From NCBI GenBank assembly GCA_017523185.1, contig JAFWXB010000008.1, positions 1 through 11,029 on the forward strand: a DNA stretch of 11,029 nucleotides, written 5' to 3'. The notes beneath the pieces were generated by a model. That model was not told the DNA's origin and did no database searches. It was given only the letters and a program-made list of their open reading frames with translations. Each line of letters begins with the position of its first letter. The stretch's first letter is position 1. A program made the translations under genes and the position numbers. The DNA is from Lachnospiraceae bacterium. Lineage in GTDB: Bacteria > Bacillota_A > Clostridia > Lachnospirales > Lachnospiraceae. Of this stretch, positions 2,327 through 11,029 are shown piece after piece.

Positions 2327-3186
2327 TAAGAGAAGTAGAACTTATTGAGTATTTGCCAGAATTTATGCAGCAGTATAGAGAACCGGTTGTTGCACTTGCA
2401 GCAGAAAATCCCGAATTTGCAAATATATGGAATGCAGTTCATCATATTTTATATAATCATTTTCTTTTAACTGCAGATGAATATGGAATTTCCAGATTTG
2501 AAAAATTACTTGGTATCTATCCAAATCAGACAGACACATTAGAGATTCGTAGAACAAGAGTTAGAAATCGTTGGTTTAGTAAAATTCCTTATACTGTGAA
2601 AAGCTTAAGAGAAAAATTTGCTGAATTATTAGGTGGAGAAGACACTTTTTCTATTATATCGAATTTTGAACAAGGTTATGAGTTGTTATTGAAGGTATAT
2701 GCTTTAAAAACAGATAGTATAGCACAAGAAATTACACATATATTTCAAACAATGCTTCCAACAAATATGCAAAAATATGTAATTTATAGTGTTACATATC
2801 CTTTATATATGCAGATAATCGAAAAGATAGTAGATTCTGTTTTATTAAATAAACTAAACATTTATTTAACAGAAGAAACAGAAATAAAGTTATCTATTCC
2901 ATATGATTTGAGATTAAAAGAAAGTATAGATTTTATAAAAATATTAAATCAATTTTTGATATATACATCAGAACAGATAACATTTTCTCCAATGATAAAT
3001 ACAACAATCAATATAGATGAGCGTATGGATATAAATGATATGTCTATTCGAAATAATATGTTCATAAAAGAAAAATTGGAAGATGTTGTTGTTATATTAA
3101 ATAAAGATGAATGGTATCTTGATGGTACTTTTTCTTTAGATGGTACAAAACAGTTGGATTCAAAAATAGTAATGGAGGAAATATGA
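2323..3186 (+). CDS. DUF2313/YmfQ (XkdU-like) baseplate protein with extended C-terminus
   Basis: Residues 1-155 fit the YmfQ/DUF2313 family that follows baseplate J in Mu-, P2- and PBSX-like tail operons. Visible marks are LIEYLPEFMQQYREP, a buried helix ending LTADEYGISRFEKLLGI, and TLEIRRTRVRNRW followed by TVKSLREKFAELLGGEDTF. At 287 residues it is longer than the roughly 190 usual for the core family. Residues about 160-287 form an extension that is isoleucine/asparagine-rich and ends with a WYLDGTFSLDGTKQLDS motif; similar 'LDGxxxLDG' endings are common in clostridial phage versions. The extension is clearly more AT-rich than the first third of the gene (about 20-25% GC in sampled 60-base lines against 40% at 2341-2400), which suggests mosaic origin. 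It starts by ATGA overlap, and the stop overlaps the next start. Confidence 0.8.
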   Translation: MIREVELIEYLPEFMQQYREPVVALAAENPEFANIWNAVHHILYNHFLLTADEYGISRFEKLLGIYPNQTDTLEIRRTRVRNRWFSKIPYTVKSLREKFAELLGGEDTFSIISNFEQGYELLLKVYALKTDSIAQEITHIFQTMLPTNMQKYVIYSVTYPLYMQIIEKIVDSVLLNKLNIYLTEETEIKLSIPYDLRLKESIDFIKILNQFLIYTSEQITFSPMINTTINIDERMDINDMSIRNNMFIKEKLEDVVVILNKDEWYLDGTFSLDGTKQLDSKIVMEEI

Positions 3187-3566
3187 TGACAAATGCAATT
3201 ATTACAGTTACAGCTAGAAATAAAATGCTTAGAGCAAGAGCTGGAGAGATTAATTTGCCTAAAATTGTAGGATTTGTTTTTGGAAATGGTGGTGTAGACG
3301 AAAATGGAGCAGTATTAACTCCACCGGAAGAACAAACTGCACTCAAAGGCGAGCTTTTAAGAAAAGAAATTGACAGTTATACATTTGTATCTTCAACAAA
3401 ATGTATGTATGAATGTACATTACAACCAAGTGAACTTGTAGGAGAAAATATTAGTGAAATAGCACTTTATGATGAAGATGGTGACCTTGTTGCAATTAAA
3501 AACTTTATGGCAAAAGGCAAAGATTCTGATTTAGAGATGAAATTCCAAATGAATGATGAATTTTAG
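3183..3566 (+). CDS. Tail-collar-fibre-like small phage tail protein
   Basis: The 127-residue protein starts TNAIITVTARNKMLRARAGE. It continues with LPKIVGFVFGNGG, PPEEQTALKGELLRKEI, a CTLQPSELVGENISEIALYDEDGDLVA stretch and a final NFMAKGKDSDLEMKFQ beta strand. This is the pattern of the N-terminal domain of phage tail-collar fibre proteins (DUF3751-like), here as a free-standing short protein. It may form the attachment socket for the long fibre encoded next. Two tandem ATGs (3183 and 3186) follow a GGAGG at 3174-3178. The first overlaps the upstream stop, while the second has the better 7-base spacing, so either may be used. The function is inferred from family resemblance and from position between YmfQ and the fibre. 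Confidence 0.7.
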   Translation: MMTNAIITVTARNKMLRARAGEINLPKIVGFVFGNGGVDENGAVLTPPEEQTALKGELLRKEIDSYTFVSSTKCMYECTLQPSELVGENISEIALYDEDGDLVAIKNFMAKGKDSDLEMKFQMNDEF

Positions 3567-3580
3567 AATGGGGGAATAGT

Positions 3581-5422
3581 ATGGCAAACTTTGAAATCTC
3601 TGACGAATTGGAATTTAGTGAGGAGATAAGAAAACTTGAATCTACTGACCGTGCTCATGCAGATATATTTAATGAAGTTATTGGAAAAGTATTTGAAAAT
3701 ACTGTTTCAAATAGAAATGCTATACAGCTTGCAGAAATTCAGACAACTACATCTAAGATTTTAAACAGAAGCAAAGAAGGTGGCTTAAGGTTTAACAAGA
3801 TATTAGGTAAGAGTGAGCAGAAAACATTTTCTTGGATTGGAAAAAATTTGTTAAATACCAATCATCTTGTAGAAGAAACAATTAATGAAGTAACATTTAC
3901 TCCTATAAAAGATGAAAATGGTTTTTTGGAATATATTAATGTAAATGGAACTGCTAGTAATGATGCAATTTTTCCTTTAAATGATGATTATTTTAGAGTG
4001 ATTGGTGGACAAAAATATATTATAAATGGCTGTCCAACTGGTGGAGCTTCAAATACATACTGGATTCAAAGCACTGGGACAACGGCTGGACCAAGTGGAA
4101 CAACAGGCGATAGTGGTAGTAATACAAGCCCTTTTTATTTTGGTACGGATGGGGCAGGAATTAAATTTGCAATAGTAATAAAAAATGGAATAACAGTTTC
4201 TAATCTTAAATTTTATCCTATGTTGCGTATGGCAGAAATAGAAGATGGTAGTTATGAACCATATTGTGGTGGTTCTCCTGTACCAAATCCGATTTATCAA
4301 TCAGAACTGAAAGAAGTTGTAATCAGAGGGATTAAGACGGTTGGGAAGAATTTTTTTAATATTCATTCGGAACCAATTTACAGTAAAGGTGTTAATATAG
4401 TTGTGAATGATGAAAATATTTCTTTAATTGTAACAGGATTAAGTTTATTTGCACAAATTTATTTTGAATTTGATAAAAATTTAGCAGGGAAAACTATTGT
4501 TTTTTCGGTTGAAGATATTATTGCAAAAACAAATGCAACTATATCTTCTGATAATTGTCCGAGAATATACATGTATTATGAAGTTGATGGAAAAGAATAT
4601 CACTCTTCCATTTTTTATACAAGTAGTACAAAAAATAAAGCTATCACGATTCCAAAAGAAGCTATAAACATCAGATTCGTATTGAGAGCATTTCAATCAG
4701 CAGATGGATATGCCATTGGAGATGTTATTACGTTTGTTAAACCACAAATTGAAATCGGAAGTTCGTATACTGGATATGCTCCATATCAAGAATCCATAAT
4801 AGAATTTTCTTCCCCAATCACCTTGCGAGGAATTGGAGATGTGAGAGATGTGCTTGGACGAAATGAGATTGAGAGAAGTATTAAGCGAGTTGTGTTTGAT
4901 GGTAATGAAAATTGGAGTTCACAATCTAGTTCATTTTTGAACAAATTAGTATTTAATACTAACATAGAATCAGTTCCAAATCGTACTACTAATAGTGTAG
5001 GTAGTGGATTGTGTAATTATTTCAAATGGAATAATGCAGCTAATGATGTAGCAAATACTGTTAGATTTACGAATGGTTCTACTAACACAATTTGGTTTTA
5101 CCCATCAAGTTTCAAAACTATTGACGAATGGAAATCATGGCTTACTGAAAAATATGAAAGTGGAAATCCTGTAACTTTAGATTATGTCTTAGCAGAATCC
5201 GAATACGAAGAATTACCTATCGTAGACAAAATAGCCTTAAATTCTCTCGAAACATTCGATAATGTTACATACATAACAGTTGATTCAGAAATAGAGCCTG
5301 ATACAGAGGTAGATTTTGGCACATCTAAAAATAGTGCGTATACCTTGCAAGGATTGAATATTGCCGAAAGAACGGAGTTGTATGCAAAGAATATTGTCAA
5401 TGGAAATGAGGTGGAATATTAA
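3581..5422 (+). CDS. Phage tail fibre / receptor-binding protein with two lectin-like modules
   Basis: The 613-residue protein begins with a helical segment (residues 8-65, SEEIRKLESTDRAHADIFNE onward) likely to trimerise or attach to the baseplate. Two related beta modules follow. Module 1 begins GKNLLN (about 87) and ends FYPMLRMAEIEDGSYEPY (211-228). Module 2 begins GKNFFN (about 255) and ends FVKPQIEIGSSYTGYAPY (385-402). This 'GKNLFD...EIGxxxTxYEPY' frame is common in Firmicutes phage fibres with carbohydrate-binding-like jelly rolls. The C-terminal part carries LRGIGDVRDVLGRNEIERS, a VVFDGNENW motif (about 437-445) and NPVTLDYVLAESEYEELP, which are also typical of such fibres. A glycine/threonine/serine-rich loop lies at residues 153-183. 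The ribosome site is GGGGG at 3570-3574. The role is probably host receptor binding; the ligand cannot be read from sequence. Confidence 0.82.
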   Translation: MANFEISDELEFSEEIRKLESTDRAHADIFNEVIGKVFENTVSNRNAIQLAEIQTTTSKILNRSKEGGLRFNKILGKSEQKTFSWIGKNLLNTNHLVEETINEVTFTPIKDENGFLEYINVNGTASNDAIFPLNDDYFRVIGGQKYIINGCPTGGASNTYWIQSTGTTAGPSGTTGDSGSNTSPFYFGTDGAGIKFAIVIKNGITVSNLKFYPMLRMAEIEDGSYEPYCGGSPVPNPIYQSELKEVVIRGIKTVGKNFFNIHSEPIYSKGVNIVVNDENISLIVTGLSLFAQIYFEFDKNLAGKTIVFSVEDIIAKTNATISSDNCPRIYMYYEVDGKEYHSSIFYTSSTKNKAITIPKEAINIRFVLRAFQSADGYAIGDVITFVKPQIEIGSSYTGYAPYQESIIEFSSPITLRGIGDVRDVLGRNEIERSIKRVVFDGNENWSSQSSSFLNKLVFNTNIESVPNRTTNSVGSGLCNYFKWNNAANDVANTVRFTNGSTNTIWFYPSSFKTIDEWKSWLTEKYESGNPVTLDYVLAESEYEELPIVDKIALNSLETFDNVTYITVDSEIEPDTEVDFGTSKNSAYTLQGLNIAERTELYAKNIVNGNEVEY

Positions 5423-6963
5423 TGAATGTATTGATTGATGAATCCACCTTAACTAGAATTGCTAACGCTATTCGTGAAGCGTTGAGTAATGAAAATAAAA
5501 TGAAGATGTCAGAGGTGGCTACGAAGATTGAGGAAATTGTAGCTGCACGAGATTCTTTCAAAGAGCAGTATAACTATTATTGGAAAGAATCATATGATGG
5601 AAAACACACCATAATAGATGCTATTGTTGATAATGGTGGAGATGATATGAAGATATCGACAGCAACGACTTTTGAAATGCTAGCAGATAAAATTAGCACA
5701 GTTGCTTCAAGGAATTATAATGCAGGGGTTACAGATACGAAAGTTGGAACAGCAACAGCAGAAGATGTATTGGCAGGAAAAACATTTACTAATGCCAATG
5801 GTGTTGGATTGGTTGGCACTATGACAAACAATGAAGCGAAGACTGTTTCATTAAATTGTAGCGAAAACTACACAATTCCAAAAGGCTACCACGACGGAAA
5901 TGGTATTGTAAAAGCAAATACATTATCAAGTCAAACAATAGGAACTGCCACATCAGCAGATATTTTAGAGGGAAAGACAGCATGGGTTGGTGGAACTAAA
6001 CATACTGGAACAAAAAAAGATTGTCCGAATGGAACGAAGTGGGGCAGTTCTTACAGCATATCTGGTGGTATTGTAAATGCGATATGTAATGCTAATGGTC
6101 GTTGGGTTATCGGACAAAATGCAAGAATATCGTATTCTGATGATGGTAAAACTTGGAATAATAGTGGAGTTAGTACTGAAACTGTAAAATGTGTATGTAA
6201 TGCTAATGATATTTGGCTTGCAACAAGCACTTATAATGGCTTATGGTATTCAACTGATGGCAAAACATGGAGTAAAGTTTGTACAGAAAAGTTTAATAAA
6301 GTATATAACGCTAATGGTCTTTGGGTGGCGTTAAGTAGTGCTAATAAAGGACTATGGTATTCGAATGATGGTATTACGTGGAATCAAAGTAATGTTACTA
6401 ATGGTTATTTTTATTCTATATATTATAGTAATAACCTTTGGGTAGTTGGTGGTAATAATGTTAAAGGCTTATGGTATTCAACTGATGGCAAAACATGGAA
6501 TCAAAGTAATGTTGTTAATGAAGAAATAAAAACTATATGTTGTTTTAACGGAGTTTGGGTTGCAGGTTCTACAAAAACAAATCATACATCTGGACTATGG
6601 TATTCGAATGATGGTATTACATGGACAATAATTGATAATGGAATAATTGTACAATCGCTATGTAAAGCTAATGGAATTTTGGTAGCTGGTTCTTATGGCA
6701 AAGGACTATGGTATTCGAATGATGGTATTACATGGAATCAAAGTAATGTTAAATCTTATCAGTTTACGGTCATATACAACGCAAATGGAATTTGGATTGC
6801 AGGTGGTTATTCATGTGGTTTATGGTATTCAACTGATGGTCAGGAATGGAATCGAAGTGATAACACAGTTAATACAATACAAGATATACATAATGCGAAT
6901 GGTCTTTGGATTGCATCCACAGATAATGGAGCAGTATTATATTCTCTATCATCAGCAATATAG
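5422..6963 (+). CDS. Phage tail protein with C-terminal Asp-box beta-propeller
   Basis: The 513-residue protein has three parts. Residues 1-105 are a helical N-terminus (IDESTLTRIANAIREAL, SEVATKIEEIV) of the type found in clostridial phage tail proteins. Residues about 108-200 hold two copies of a GTAT-x-x-D-[VI]-L-x-GKT...G-x-x-GT module (starting V108 and I173). Residues about 210-513 form a propeller with seven Asp-box motifs (S-x-D-G-x-x-W) at S239, S277, S314, S353, S395, S432 and S470. These are spaced 37-42 residues apart, each preceded by an 'ANGxWxxG' strand. An eighth such strand closes the chain, followed by only a short ending (VLYSLSSAI). Asp-boxes mark sialidase/BNR-type propellers, but catalytic residues cannot be assigned here, so binding is likelier than catalysis. 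The ribosome site is GAGGTGG at 5408-5414, and the start overlaps the preceding stop by one base. Confidence 0.85.
   Translation: MNVLIDESTLTRIANAIREALSNENKMKMSEVATKIEEIVAARDSFKEQYNYYWKESYDGKHTIIDAIVDNGGDDMKISTATTFEMLADKISTVASRNYNAGVTDTKVGTATAEDVLAGKTFTNANGVGLVGTMTNNEAKTVSLNCSENYTIPKGYHDGNGIVKANTLSSQTIGTATSADILEGKTAWVGGTKHTGTKKDCPNGTKWGSSYSISGGIVNAICNANGRWVIGQNARISYSDDGKTWNNSGVSTETVKCVCNANDIWLATSTYNGLWYSTDGKTWSKVCTEKFNKVYNANGLWVALSSANKGLWYSNDGITWNQSNVTNGYFYSIYYSNNLWVVGGNNVKGLWYSTDGKTWNQSNVVNEEIKTICCFNGVWVAGSTKTNHTSGLWYSNDGITWTIIDNGIIVQSLCKANGILVAGSYGKGLWYSNDGITWNQSNVKSYQFTVIYNANGIWIAGGYSCGLWYSTDGQEWNRSDNTVNTIQDIHNANGLWIASTDNGAVLYSLSSAI
6238..6849 (+). repeat. Near-identical DNA repeats encoding the Asp-box blades
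   Basis: Six repeat cores of 33-48 bases lie inside the propeller gene, starting at 6238, 6349, 6466, 6592, 6703 and 6817. Two sub-types are visible. Type A (GLWYSNDGITW) occurs at 6349, 6592 and 6703; the segments 6346-6396 and 6700-6750 match in 50 of 51 bases. Type B (GLWYSTDGKTW) occurs at 6238 and 6466, where the first 34 bases are identical, and in diverged form at 6817. A more degenerate first copy ends at 6156. Such DNA-level identity between blades suggests recent duplication or gene conversion. Confidence 0.88.
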
Positions 6964-8950: not shown

Positions 8951-9020
8951 TTTTTTAAAAAATATATTAATGTAAGTTCAATAAATAAAAAACGGGAAAA
9001 TCATATTTTCTTTTATTGAA
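8946..9020 (+). terminator. AT-rich inverted repeats after the endolysin, possible weak terminator
   Basis: Two structures follow the endolysin stop. ATTAATTTTTT (8946-8956) faces AAAAAATATATTAAT (8957-8971). A nested hairpin follows, with outer arms TTCAATAAA (8977-8985) and TTTATTGAA (9012-9020) and inner arms GAAAAT (8996-9001) and ATTTTC (9005-9010) around a 3-base loop. They are placed correctly to end the late transcript, but the stems are almost all A-T and the T-tract is imperfect, so efficiency is doubtful. Confidence 0.4.
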
Positions 9021-9053
9021 TCAGAAATACATGGTTTAGTTTTAAAATCTTTA

Positions 9054-9179
9054 AATAATGGATATATCAAACTGAATATATATACTATTATAGAAACCAA
9101 ACAAGCACATGGATACATTTAAGTGAAATTAAAATTTGGAATTGGTTGGATTGCTTTAGAATTTGTAGAAAAATTATAA
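9054..9179 (+). pseudogene. Decayed C-terminal SH3b-domain relic of a cell-wall lysin
   Basis: In the frame beginning at 9054 the translation reads NNGYIKLNIYTIIETKQA, then HGYI, a TAA stop at 9120-9122, then VKLKFGIGWIALEFVEKL and a TAA at 9177-9179. The pattern 'YTIxETKxxxGYxWxKLKxGxGWIxLxYVxKL' is how bacterial SH3-type domains end in many clostridial amidases and phage lysins. The stop falls where such domains usually have a Trp-containing 'TWGKLK' segment. The upstream half of an SH3b domain is not visible, and there is no start codon with a ribosome site. This looks like a leftover of an older lysin or wall-binding gene. Recognition is by eye from one short stretch, so chance resemblance is possible. 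Confidence 0.5.
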
Positions 9180-9214
9180 GAACATATAAAATAATTGTAT
9201 ACATTAATACATTA

Positions 9215-9277
9215 TTGTCAAATGAATGATTTAAGTGTATAATAATTATTGACAATACTTGAATAGTATGATAGACT
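9215..9277 (+). promoter_or_regulatory. Two overlapping sigma-A-like promoters upstream of the peptidase gene
   Basis: Promoter 1 is TTGTCA (9215-9220), 17 bases, then TATAAT (9238-9243). Promoter 2 is TTGACA (9249-9254), 17 bases, then TAGACT (9272-9277) with an extended-10 TG at 9269-9270. Both point toward the peptidase gene at 9306. The two -35 regions form an inverted pair, TTGTCAA (9215-9221) and TTGACAA (9249-9255), which could be operator half-sites or simply a by-product of the two promoters. Confidence 0.65.
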
Positions 9278-9305
9278 AATAAAATTATTTTTTGGAGGTG
9301 TTGGT

Positions 9306-9833
9306 ATGAATAATGAAATGCGTATACAAATAAATGCGTTGGCAGAAGATATTATTAAAATCTTTGACATACCAACGCCTATTGAAGATATTGATGTGGT
9401 TGTTGAAACTTTAGGTGGTAAAATACAAGAAGATATGGAGAGTGGAAGTTTCTCTGATGGAAAAATAGAGAGAGAGGAAGTCGATGGTAAATTTTTGATT
9501 AAAATACCATATGGACAATCTGAAAGTAGAAAAAATTTTACAGTTGCACATGAATTAGGACATTTGTTTTTACACATGGGTTATTTGATTGATGCAGAAT
9601 TATGGGAAAAATCTAAAAATAAAACTTTTTATCGTAAAGGAAATTCTGAAATAGAATTACAAGCTAATGAATTTGCAGCAGCGTTTTTGATGCCAAGAAA
9701 AAAGTATAAAGAGATTTTAGATAAGTATTCTGAAAGTAATTATGTTTTGATTTCCAAAGTGGCTGATTATTTTAATGTCTCAATTGATGCAGCATCGTAT
9801 AGAGGAAAATGGTTAGGATATTTAGAATGGTAA
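9306..9833 (+). CDS. ImmA/IrrE-family zinc metallopeptidase
   Basis: The 175-residue protein has the ImmA/IrrE layout. An N-terminal helix (ALAEDIIKIFDIPTPIEDID) leads to a short beta region, then the zinc motif VAHELGHLFLH (His82, Glu83, His86), and then ELQANEFAAAFLMP with Glu122 as the likely third zinc ligand. Length is typical, and all catalytic residues are present. Characterised relatives cleave a partner regulator: ImmA cuts the ICEBs1 repressor ImmR, IrrE/PprI cuts DdrO, and CapP cuts the CBASS repressor CapH. No HTH partner gene is visible here. It is preceded by GGAGGTG (9294-9300) and a promoter pair, and its stop lies inside the start of the next gene (ATGGTAA at 9827-9833). The two genes are therefore probably co-translated, so the peptidase may regulate or process something tied to the cyclase-like protein. 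Confidence 0.9.
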   Translation: MNNEMRIQINALAEDIIKIFDIPTPIEDIDVVVETLGGKIQEDMESGSFSDGKIEREEVDGKFLIKIPYGQSESRKNFTVAHELGHLFLHMGYLIDAELWEKSKNKTFYRKGNSEIELQANEFAAAFLMPRKKYKEILDKYSESNYVLISKVADYFNVSIDAASYRGKWLGYLEW

Positions 9834-11029
9834 ATTTTGAAGAAAAAAAAGAGTTATCTAAGTATAAAATAATAGTAAATAATACAGAAGAACAAGATAC
9901 ATTATTATCAAAAGAGAGTTTTAAAAATGTAGGAGATAATGTTGTCTTGTTCTTTTCTTTTGATATTGTAAACTCATCTATATATAAAACTATTAATTAT
10001 TATGGTTGGTCAGTTGTTATTGATAAGATTATTACTGAGCTTAGAAATAAGGTAAAGGAGAAGATTACACGTGCAGAAGTATGGAGAGTTTTAGGAGATG
10101 AGGTTATATTTATAGTCAATATATGTGATATCGAATCTATATATGAATATATTGAATCTATATATAGTATATTGATAAATTTTTGTGAAAATATTGAAAA
10201 TGGAAATTTTTTTGATAAGATAGAAAATTTATCTCATTCAATGATTCATTTAATGAAGATAGAGAATATTATTTCATTACAATCTTGTGCTTGGCTTGCA
10301 GCTGTTAAAGATAAAAATGAAATAAAAGATATTTCAAATATAGAATATATAGAAAATATGTTTGAAATTATTGAAGAAAATAAAAATATAAAATTTTATG
10401 AATTTATAGGAATTGATATTGATACGGGTTTTAGATTAGTGGAACAAACTAGAGAAAAAAGGTTAGTTTTAAGTTTTGAGTTAGCATATATACTTTCAAA
10501 ACATAAGGAATTTATAAAACGGTTAAATATAGTGACATATCGTAAATTGAAAGGTGTATGGAATAATTCTGCATATCCAATCATATGGTATTATGATAAA
10601 AATAAACATAATAATAGAAAATTTATTGCAAGTTTTCCATTTGATGCTATTGAAAAAGATGAGATTTATGTAGAATTTTTTAGTAAAAAAATTTTTCCAG
10701 AGTATATGTATAAAGATGTGAAAAATGCTTTGAAAAAAATTTTATTAGATAGAAAATTGGAAGTAAAAATTAATAGAATTGAAAATCTTATAGAAAACAG
10801 TAAGAATTCATATAAACAATATATTGATAATTCTAAATTGGAATTACATTGTGTAGCAGTTTGTTATAATGAAGAAGGAAAAATTCTTATTGTAAAAAGA
10901 ACTGAAAGAGAAATACTTAAATCAAAATGGGAATTTGGTTGTGCTAAAGCAAATTCAAGAAAACAATTGATAGATACTATCATAGAAGAATATGAAAAAG
11001 ATTTTGGGATTCAAATTGAATTATATATA
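9827..11029 (+). CDS. Class III nucleotide cyclase-like domain fused to a NUDIX-fold domain (3' end beyond window)
   Basis: The frame from ATG 9827 stays open for 401 codons to the window edge, so the C-terminus is missing. Residues about 38-256 resemble a class III cyclase catalytic domain. FFSFDIVNSS (metal Asp46) matches the 'FxDIVGST' motif and WRVLGDEVIF (Asp91) the second metal motif. FIGIDIDTGFRLVEQ (Gly195 to Arg203) matches 'WGxxVNxAxRM', RLVLSFELAYIL the following strand, and YRKLKGV....IIWYY (238-256) the usual 'LKG' ending. Residues about 338-401 resemble a NUDIX fold: LHCVAVCYNEEGKILIVKR, then KWEF (367-370), then a helix with IIEEYEKDFGI where the NUDIX box lies. Residues 257-337 are a lysine-rich helical linker. 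The gene overlaps the peptidase gene and is very AT-rich (8 of 60 bases G or C at 10141-10200). Fold calls are by hand, and the substrate is unknown. Confidence 0.7.
   Translation, partial: MVNFEEKKELSKYKIIVNNTEEQDTLLSKESFKNVGDNVVLFFSFDIVNSSIYKTINYYGWSVVIDKIITELRNKVKEKITRAEVWRVLGDEVIFIVNICDIESIYEYIESIYSILINFCENIENGNFFDKIENLSHSMIHLMKIENIISLQSCAWLAAVKDKNEIKDISNIEYIENMFEIIEENKNIKFYEFIGIDIDTGFRLVEQTREKRLVLSFELAYILSKHKEFIKRLNIVTYRKLKGVWNNSAYPIIWYYDKNKHNNRKFIASFPFDAIEKDEIYVEFFSKKIFPEYMYKDVKNALKKILLDRKLEVKINRIENLIENSKNSYKQYIDNSKLELHCVAVCYNEEGKILIVKRTEREILKSKWEFGCAKANSRKQLIDTIIEEYEKDFGIQIELYI

Follow-up and report, generated by a model that had tools for sequence, protein, structure and literature searches.

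The question raised by this locus is what two adjoining genes at the end of a stretch of phage DNA, encoding a metallopeptidase and a predicted nucleotide cyclase fused to a Nudix-like domain, do for the phage that carries them. The window, by which we mean the whole 11,029-base stretch of DNA that was analysed, is mostly filled with phage genes, which run through baseplate, tail, holin, and endolysin to an AT-rich two-gene stretch. A PHROGs search with the eight proteins encoded upstream assigned three to tail or baseplate, one to holin, and one to endolysin families, while two matched unknown families and one had no match. A tail-region protein at 5422-6963 contains many repeats of the 'GLWYS-DG--WN' type. 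The original prediction had described a two-gene unit at the phage end, and the two ORFs, 9306-9833 and 9827-11029, were found as described on the same strand, with the second still open at the contig end. The AT enrichment it had reported was also confirmed, with a GC content of 0.22-0.29 over 9001-10800 against about 0.30-0.37 in most phage genes; the dip is not unique to the cassette, as 2401-3300 also has a value of 0.255. The features of the two genes and of the region upstream are as follows.

9213-9257, no strand: perfect 9-bp inverted repeat, TATTGTCAA / TTGACAATA, spanning the best promoter-like site (possible operator)
9215-9243, + strand: best promoter-like site, TTGTCA-17-TATAAT, 11/12 matches
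9294-9298, + strand: GGAGG ribosome-binding site, read from the sequence
9306-9833, + strand: M78 (ImmA/IrrE/CapP-type) metallopeptidase, 175 aa, peptidase domain only, intact (Pfam PF06114, E 3.8e-19)
9549-9563, + strand: HELGH zinc motif, residues 82-86, from the ORF translation
9827-11029, + strand: cyclase-Nudix fusion, 401 aa seen, ending at the contig end (phrog_6174, E 6.5e-101)
9932-10606, + strand: class III nucleotide cyclase domain, about residues 36-260, predicted fold
9962-9964, + strand: first metal aspartate, D46 (FFSFD), invariant in 56/56 aligned relatives
10097-10099, + strand: second metal aspartate, D91 (LGDE), invariant in 56/56
10410-10439, + strand: GIDIDTGFRL motif of the cyclase, D-I-D-x-G-F-R invariant in 56/56
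10832-11029, + strand: start of the Nudix-fold domain, residues 336-401, predicted fold (in P0002 it ends near residue 484)
10928-11011, + strand: degenerate Nudix box, residues 368-395, from the 56-sequence alignment

The case for promoters of its own was weak: the best site matches at 11/12 positions, but the total of 8 promoter-like sites did not differ from the 8.2 +/- 2.7 found in shuffled sequences. The inverted repeat was considered as an operator, and the idea was dropped because none of the 9 relatives inspected showed this repeat in its upstream region. The ATGGTAA overlap of the two genes was present as predicted, with the cyclase ATG at 9827-9829 and the peptidase stop codon at 9831-9833. 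An alternative in-frame ATG for the cyclase lies at 9809, and the query references for the cyclase started at 9830, without the initiator Met. An ATGG+stop overlap recurred in 27 of the 39 surveyed M78-cyclase junctions, which include four near-copies from C. difficile phages, and it was in the cyclase frame in 26 (not in L028). Because the overlap is so frequent, it suggests that the peptidase and the cyclase may be translated in a coupled manner and perhaps form a complex.

The peptidase was assigned to the M78 family with the predicted HELGH motif intact, and its best family match was the PADLOC capP model (E 7.5e-32, model positions 4-149 of 242), with the PDB CapP structure 7t5t matching at E 2e-5. 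The zinc motif HE[LI][GA]H was kept in all 39 adjacent M78 genes of a 50-locus survey, where the peptidases were 165-201 aa long. These matches raise the alternative that a damage cue activates the peptidase, which would then cut an HTH repressor and thereby switch on the cyclase operon, as in CapP/ImmA-type derepression. The available text of PMC10904395 describes such cleavage of repressors by CapP and PprI once ssDNA activates them, and the inverted repeat at the window's best promoter as well as HTH or repressor genes near the phiC2, LE1, and L034 copies are compatible with it. Those regulators occur near single copies: phiC2 has annotated regulators and repressors of the cI type at a distance of about 2-5 kb, LE1 a CI repressor close to the M78-cyclase pair, and L034 an adjacent 99-aa ORF that resembles an HTH protein by eye. 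However, no HTH repressor gene was conserved beside the cassette in the 50 loci, where every neighbor family apart from the three core families occurred in at most 5 loci, and the small ORFs upstream of the cassette appeared, by eye, unrelated to each other; a repressor could still be encoded farther away. The C-terminal domain of CapP is also absent, as the match stops with about 90 capP model positions left, and the solved CapP has 291 aa versus 175 aa for the window peptidase. What stood of the predicted parallel to the CapH/CapP regulators of CBASS was therefore the M78 domain with its HExxH motif, and a CapP-style role is disfavored because there is neither a conserved repressor gene nor a CapP C-terminal domain; we consider derepression of this type rather unlikely.

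The second protein had 459 homologues at E <= 1e-3 (7997 candidates scored), and its relatives were mostly about 470-520 aa long among the 120 matches listed. The predicted motifs DIVNSS, LGDE, and GIDIDTGFRL were all present, and the AlphaFold model supported the class III cyclase core that had been proposed. The concern that the metal aspartates might vary freely among homologues was removed by the alignment, in which both were invariant in 56/56 relatives. As judged from the predicted model, the N-terminal part is thus a class III-type nucleotide cyclase domain with both metal aspartates, and the matches listed in the structure comparison were class III cyclases. Sequence searches of the PDB with the cyclase part returned nothing useful (DosC at 0.0036), and no solved PycC was among the 50 structural matches listed for the cyclase-only model, which says nothing about membership. 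In PADLOC, where the presence of a PycC model is uncertain, there was no PycC-named match at E <= 1.

The hhalign comparison of the cyclase domain with the L104-type PycC family of canonical layout, one such family among clades A-E, gave a weak match in the right register (9.3% probability, E 0.0035), and the full-length profile reached 0.8%. Because this match is weak, the cyclase is not clearly placed in the canonical PycC family, and it would at best be a remote cousin of the L104-type family. Among the specificity residues described for AnPycC and EaPycC in the available text of PMC11224242, as aligned by motif, the cassette cyclase shares just one with EaPycC, an arginine four positions before the second metal aspartate, whereas its serine two positions before the first one (56/56) agrees with neither AnPycC nor EaPycC, and base specificity is not readable from these motifs.

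The NUDIX-like C-terminus that had been predicted was likewise supported as a Nudix fold by the AlphaFold model, though with a degenerate box. In the 56 aligned relatives, the GX5EX7REUXEEXGU box of an active Nudix hydrolase was not found: the E53-equivalent Glu was kept in 52/56 and an Asp stood at the E57-equivalent position in 54/56, while the Gly of GX5E was Ala in 55/56, its Glu was kept in 9/56, the Arg of REUxEE in 6/56, and E56 in 9/56. The domain thereby differs from the MutT-type hydrolases (MutT2, NudG), to which the PDB sequence search gave weak matches (best 0.0027). Since several Nudix folds lay within 1 Z of each other in the structure comparison, the ligand cannot be read from the model. 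Most likely the degenerate-box domain would bind a nucleotide and gate the cyclase. At L033 (7935-9332), a split or a frameshift leaves the Nudix-like part in an ORF of its own, and an M78 gene lies upstream.

A profile search with the family alignment identified 41 loci in genome contigs and 28 in viral contigs, the latter comprising 23 of the C. difficile phage type (48% identity) and 5 of the Leptospira type (30%). The neighborhood survey covered 50 loci, namely the 41 genome loci, 5 of the 28 viral ones, and 4 from annotated records. Whether the peptidase gene stays adjacent in homologues had been posed as a check, and 31 of the 41 genome loci carry an intact M78 gene immediately 5' of the cyclase gene. 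Of the remainder, L023 has an M78 remnant, L036 starts inside the cyclase, and L031, L032, and L041-L046 show no M78 gene. Single-sequence scans of viral contigs returned 5 distant M78 loci and no relative of the cyclase.

The third core family was a PycTM-like gene that accompanies the cassette in 24 of the 41 genome loci, in 23 of them downstream on the same strand and in one, that of Floricoccus (L037), upstream of M78. A third arrangement is seen in phiC2, where the gene lies on the opposite strand. The protein is roughly 170 aa long, and each of the 25 copies scored contains at least two hydrophobic segments. Most of these genes had themselves gone into the HMM behind this count, but Pfam PF18967 gave the same result: it matched with E-values down to 2.3e-12 and passed its 27.2-bit threshold in 6 of the 8 effectors tested, plus L036, while L012 (26.9 bits), L025 (25.1), and L037 (21.4) fell below it. 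PADLOC PycTM models matched 6/6 effectors tested. In 3 of these 6 (L006, L012, and L024), the PADLOC 'Effector, 2TM' model outscored the PycTM models, which puts the effector in a broader 2TM group. This group is also used by other nucleotide-signal systems. A sequence search for solved structures related to PycTM gave no convincing match (best E 0.69).

The effector expected downstream of the cyclase was accordingly found beside the cassette in related genomes, but it was not seen in 17 of the 41 genome loci, 2 of which end at a contig edge and 1 of which has just 960 bp of downstream sequence. Two close relatives, L009 and L016, have complete neighborhoods without PycTM, and a plasmid search gave no PycTM match. 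The closest locus, L006, carries all three genes, with a cyclase 67% identical to P0002.

The M78 and cyclase distances between loci had a correlation of 0.94 over 28 loci; for PycTM, the correlation was 0.81 with the cyclase (20 loci) and 0.75 with M78. None of 2000 permutations was as high as any of the three. These correlations omit the near-copies L047, L065, L071, L075, and L076, as well as L077, loci without M78, and the broken or cut L023, L026, L027, L033, L036, L038, and L040; those with PycTM also omit L037, where the effector was not part of the BLAST cluster. On this comparison, the M78 and cyclase genes are co-inherited. Among the 299 genomes searched from the bacterial family to which L012 (Schaedlerella) belongs, a full cyclase was found in 5, and all 4 strong matches to the PycTM type of this family fell in these 5 genomes, adjacent to the cyclase, although this co-occurrence is partly circular because some PycTM query rows came from the same genomes. 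The 9 weaker of the 14 cyclase matches in this search, and the 5 weaker of 6 in a further search, spanned just part of the model, about 60-145 positions, and were left out of the family. The PycTM search of the 299 genomes gave matches in 9, which in 5 of these were all weaker (1.2e-12 to 4.1e-4). Two of the weaker matches in this set, L104 (644-2022) and L105 (3-1989), are pairs of cyclase and PycTM with no M78 gene seen within roughly 3.4 kb, and for the L104 cyclase a uridylate cyclase of known structure was matched at E 0.0025. Across 50,697 phage records (tblastn, E <= 0.01), PycTM of the phiC2 type was found only in 4 Clostridioides records from two phages, all of which also carry the cyclase, while in the 3 LE1 phage records the cyclase was present and tblastn returned no PycTM.

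In phiC2, the cassette comprises phiC2p42 (M78), p41 (cyclase-Nudix, 48% identical to P0002), and p40 (PycTM), sits between lysis and integration genes, and differs from the arrangement of most genome loci in the strand of PycTM; all three genes are also present in phiCD27. Parts of this module have been described before. In the available text of a 2014 review (PMC4009436), a low-similarity 'tcdB-like' gene of phiC2 beside a DUF955 gene is placed in a lysogenic conversion module, with the pair conserved in phiCD27; by its position, this gene is presumably p41. A coding sequence of phiC2/phiCD27, also presumably p41, is reported in PMC12774648 to be 20% identical and structurally very similar to a Pycsar cyclase (TM 0.87), so that, going by the accessible part of that article, the cyclase of these phages is already in print as Pycsar-like. 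In the open-licence papers searched, we found no description of the whole three-gene architecture and no paper tying Pycsar to both a peptidase and a Nudix domain; among those listed, the one that mentions Pycsar together with Nudix deals with Cap16.

Since the temperate phages phiC2 and phiCD27 as well as the Leptospira phage LE1 carry a homologous pair, and the LE1 M78 gene is annotated as 'immunity region protein in prophage', the peptidase and a cyclic-nucleotide signal might instead tune prophage behavior, serving phage immunity or lysogeny control with no abortive infection; a relative without M78 in a signalling context is also in line with this. However, PycTM is a known defense effector, and PycTM-bearing cassettes also lie outside obvious phages (L018, L017, L020/L021, L007, L013, and L025), which makes lysogeny control quite unlikely. 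These cassettes have housekeeping-type neighbors, such as TRCF in L018 and Obg in L017, and the flanks of L020/L021 are common to two species. Large serine recombinases upstream of the cassette in L007, L013, L025, and L027, the last of which is cut before the effector, hint at integrative elements.

The distant members of the cyclase family have other surroundings. The Brevinema and Mycoplasmataceae loci L041-L045 encode cyclase-only proteins of 266-276 aa with no M78 or PycTM nearby (only 312 bp upstream were available for L043), and the distant members from Lysobacterales also show neither gene. Chakrabartyella piscis (L032, 4996-10060) has a second cyclase, M78-less and with a very degenerate Nudix-like end, which is preceded by two related genes, the adjacent one matching SpoIIE (PF07228, 3.9e-48), and followed by an ORF that resembles, by eye, an anti-sigma ATPase; this setting suggests a non-defense signalling use of the cyclase. 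Because distant members show neither M78 nor PycTM and one M78-less member lies beside SpoIIE phosphatases, the cyclase family, taken overall, is not confined to defense.

At three loci (L023, L026, and L038) the cyclase is broken and PycTM intact, with the M78 remnant of L023 also lacking the zinc motif; L023 and L026 are metagenome bins, in which assembly errors are possible. An intact PycTM beside a broken cyclase fits an effector that is harmless without its cyclase. A Panoptes-like guard, in which the cyclase product constantly holds PycTM off until phage proteins that destroy or soak up the signal free the toxin, is in keeping with a non-canonical cyclase paired with PycTM, and in the available text of PMC12657218 the Panoptes authors speculate about possible guards for the signal pool of Pycsar. 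Such a guard is nevertheless very unlikely, as these three loci should then be toxic unless misassembled. Panoptes itself has an mCpol synthase and an S-2TM-beta effector; the matches listed for the cyclase model of the cassette were class III cyclases, and its effector matches PF18967.

Drawing on PycTM in relatives, the adjacency of M78 and cyclase, and their co-inheritance, we therefore consider it likely that the window holds the first part of a Pycsar-like abortive-infection cassette carried by a prophage, with the third gene located immediately beyond the contig end. The nucleotide-signalling cassette of the original prediction is thus upheld in its cyclase and Nudix folds and its linkage, but not as a CapP/CapH-type module. 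We infer a PycTM gene in this phage and an anti-phage function for the cassette, together with the signal and the roles given below to the Nudix domain and the peptidase. With Pycsar, in which PycC is paired with PycTM or PycTIR, the cassette shares a class III-fold cyclase with both metal aspartates and, in its relatives, a PF18967 PycTM effector adjoining the cyclase; it differs in the added M78 gene, in the C-terminal Nudix-fold domain, and in a cyclase that is not clearly joined to the canonical PycC profile. The CBASS effector Cap16 (TM + NUDIX) likewise places a Nudix-fold domain within a nucleotide-signal defense system, but according to the accessible text of PMC10419184 the domain is on the effector there, rather than on the cyclase.

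The circuit most likely resembles Pycsar with two added control parts, the peptidase and the pseudo-Nudix domain. Infection by another phage would change something that is read by the Nudix domain or by the peptidase. The N-terminal cyclase domain would then produce a cyclic mononucleotide, for which a pyrimidine one is the natural guess, and this would activate PycTM, damaging the membrane and stopping the infection. The Nudix-fold domain would most likely gate the cyclase by binding a nucleotide, while the co-translated M78 peptidase would be the second control part, probably acting on a protein of the cassette and not on a dedicated repressor. The activating direction is favored over a Panoptes-like one because PycTM stays intact beside the broken cyclases of L023, L026, and L038. 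For Pycsar itself, the available text of Hou et al. reports in vitro activity of E. coli PycC and AnPycC on their own and proposes phage components or pH changes as triggers of PycC (PMC11224242).

More tentatively, the cassette could represent a distinct Pycsar class, carried by prophages for defense against superinfection, in which the pseudo-Nudix domain would sense a phage-altered (deoxy)nucleotide pool and the co-translated M78 peptidase would process or restrain the cyclase or PycTM, so that the membrane effector would fire only when two independent checks agree. A Pycsar-like class with a Nudix-fold domain and a peptidase would offer two deletable parts with which the sensing of infection can be tested. 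It would also give a likely function to the large family phrog_6174 of phages and gut bacteria, which is listed as unknown in PHROGs, and to the genes of phiC2 and phiCD27 that were previously read differently.
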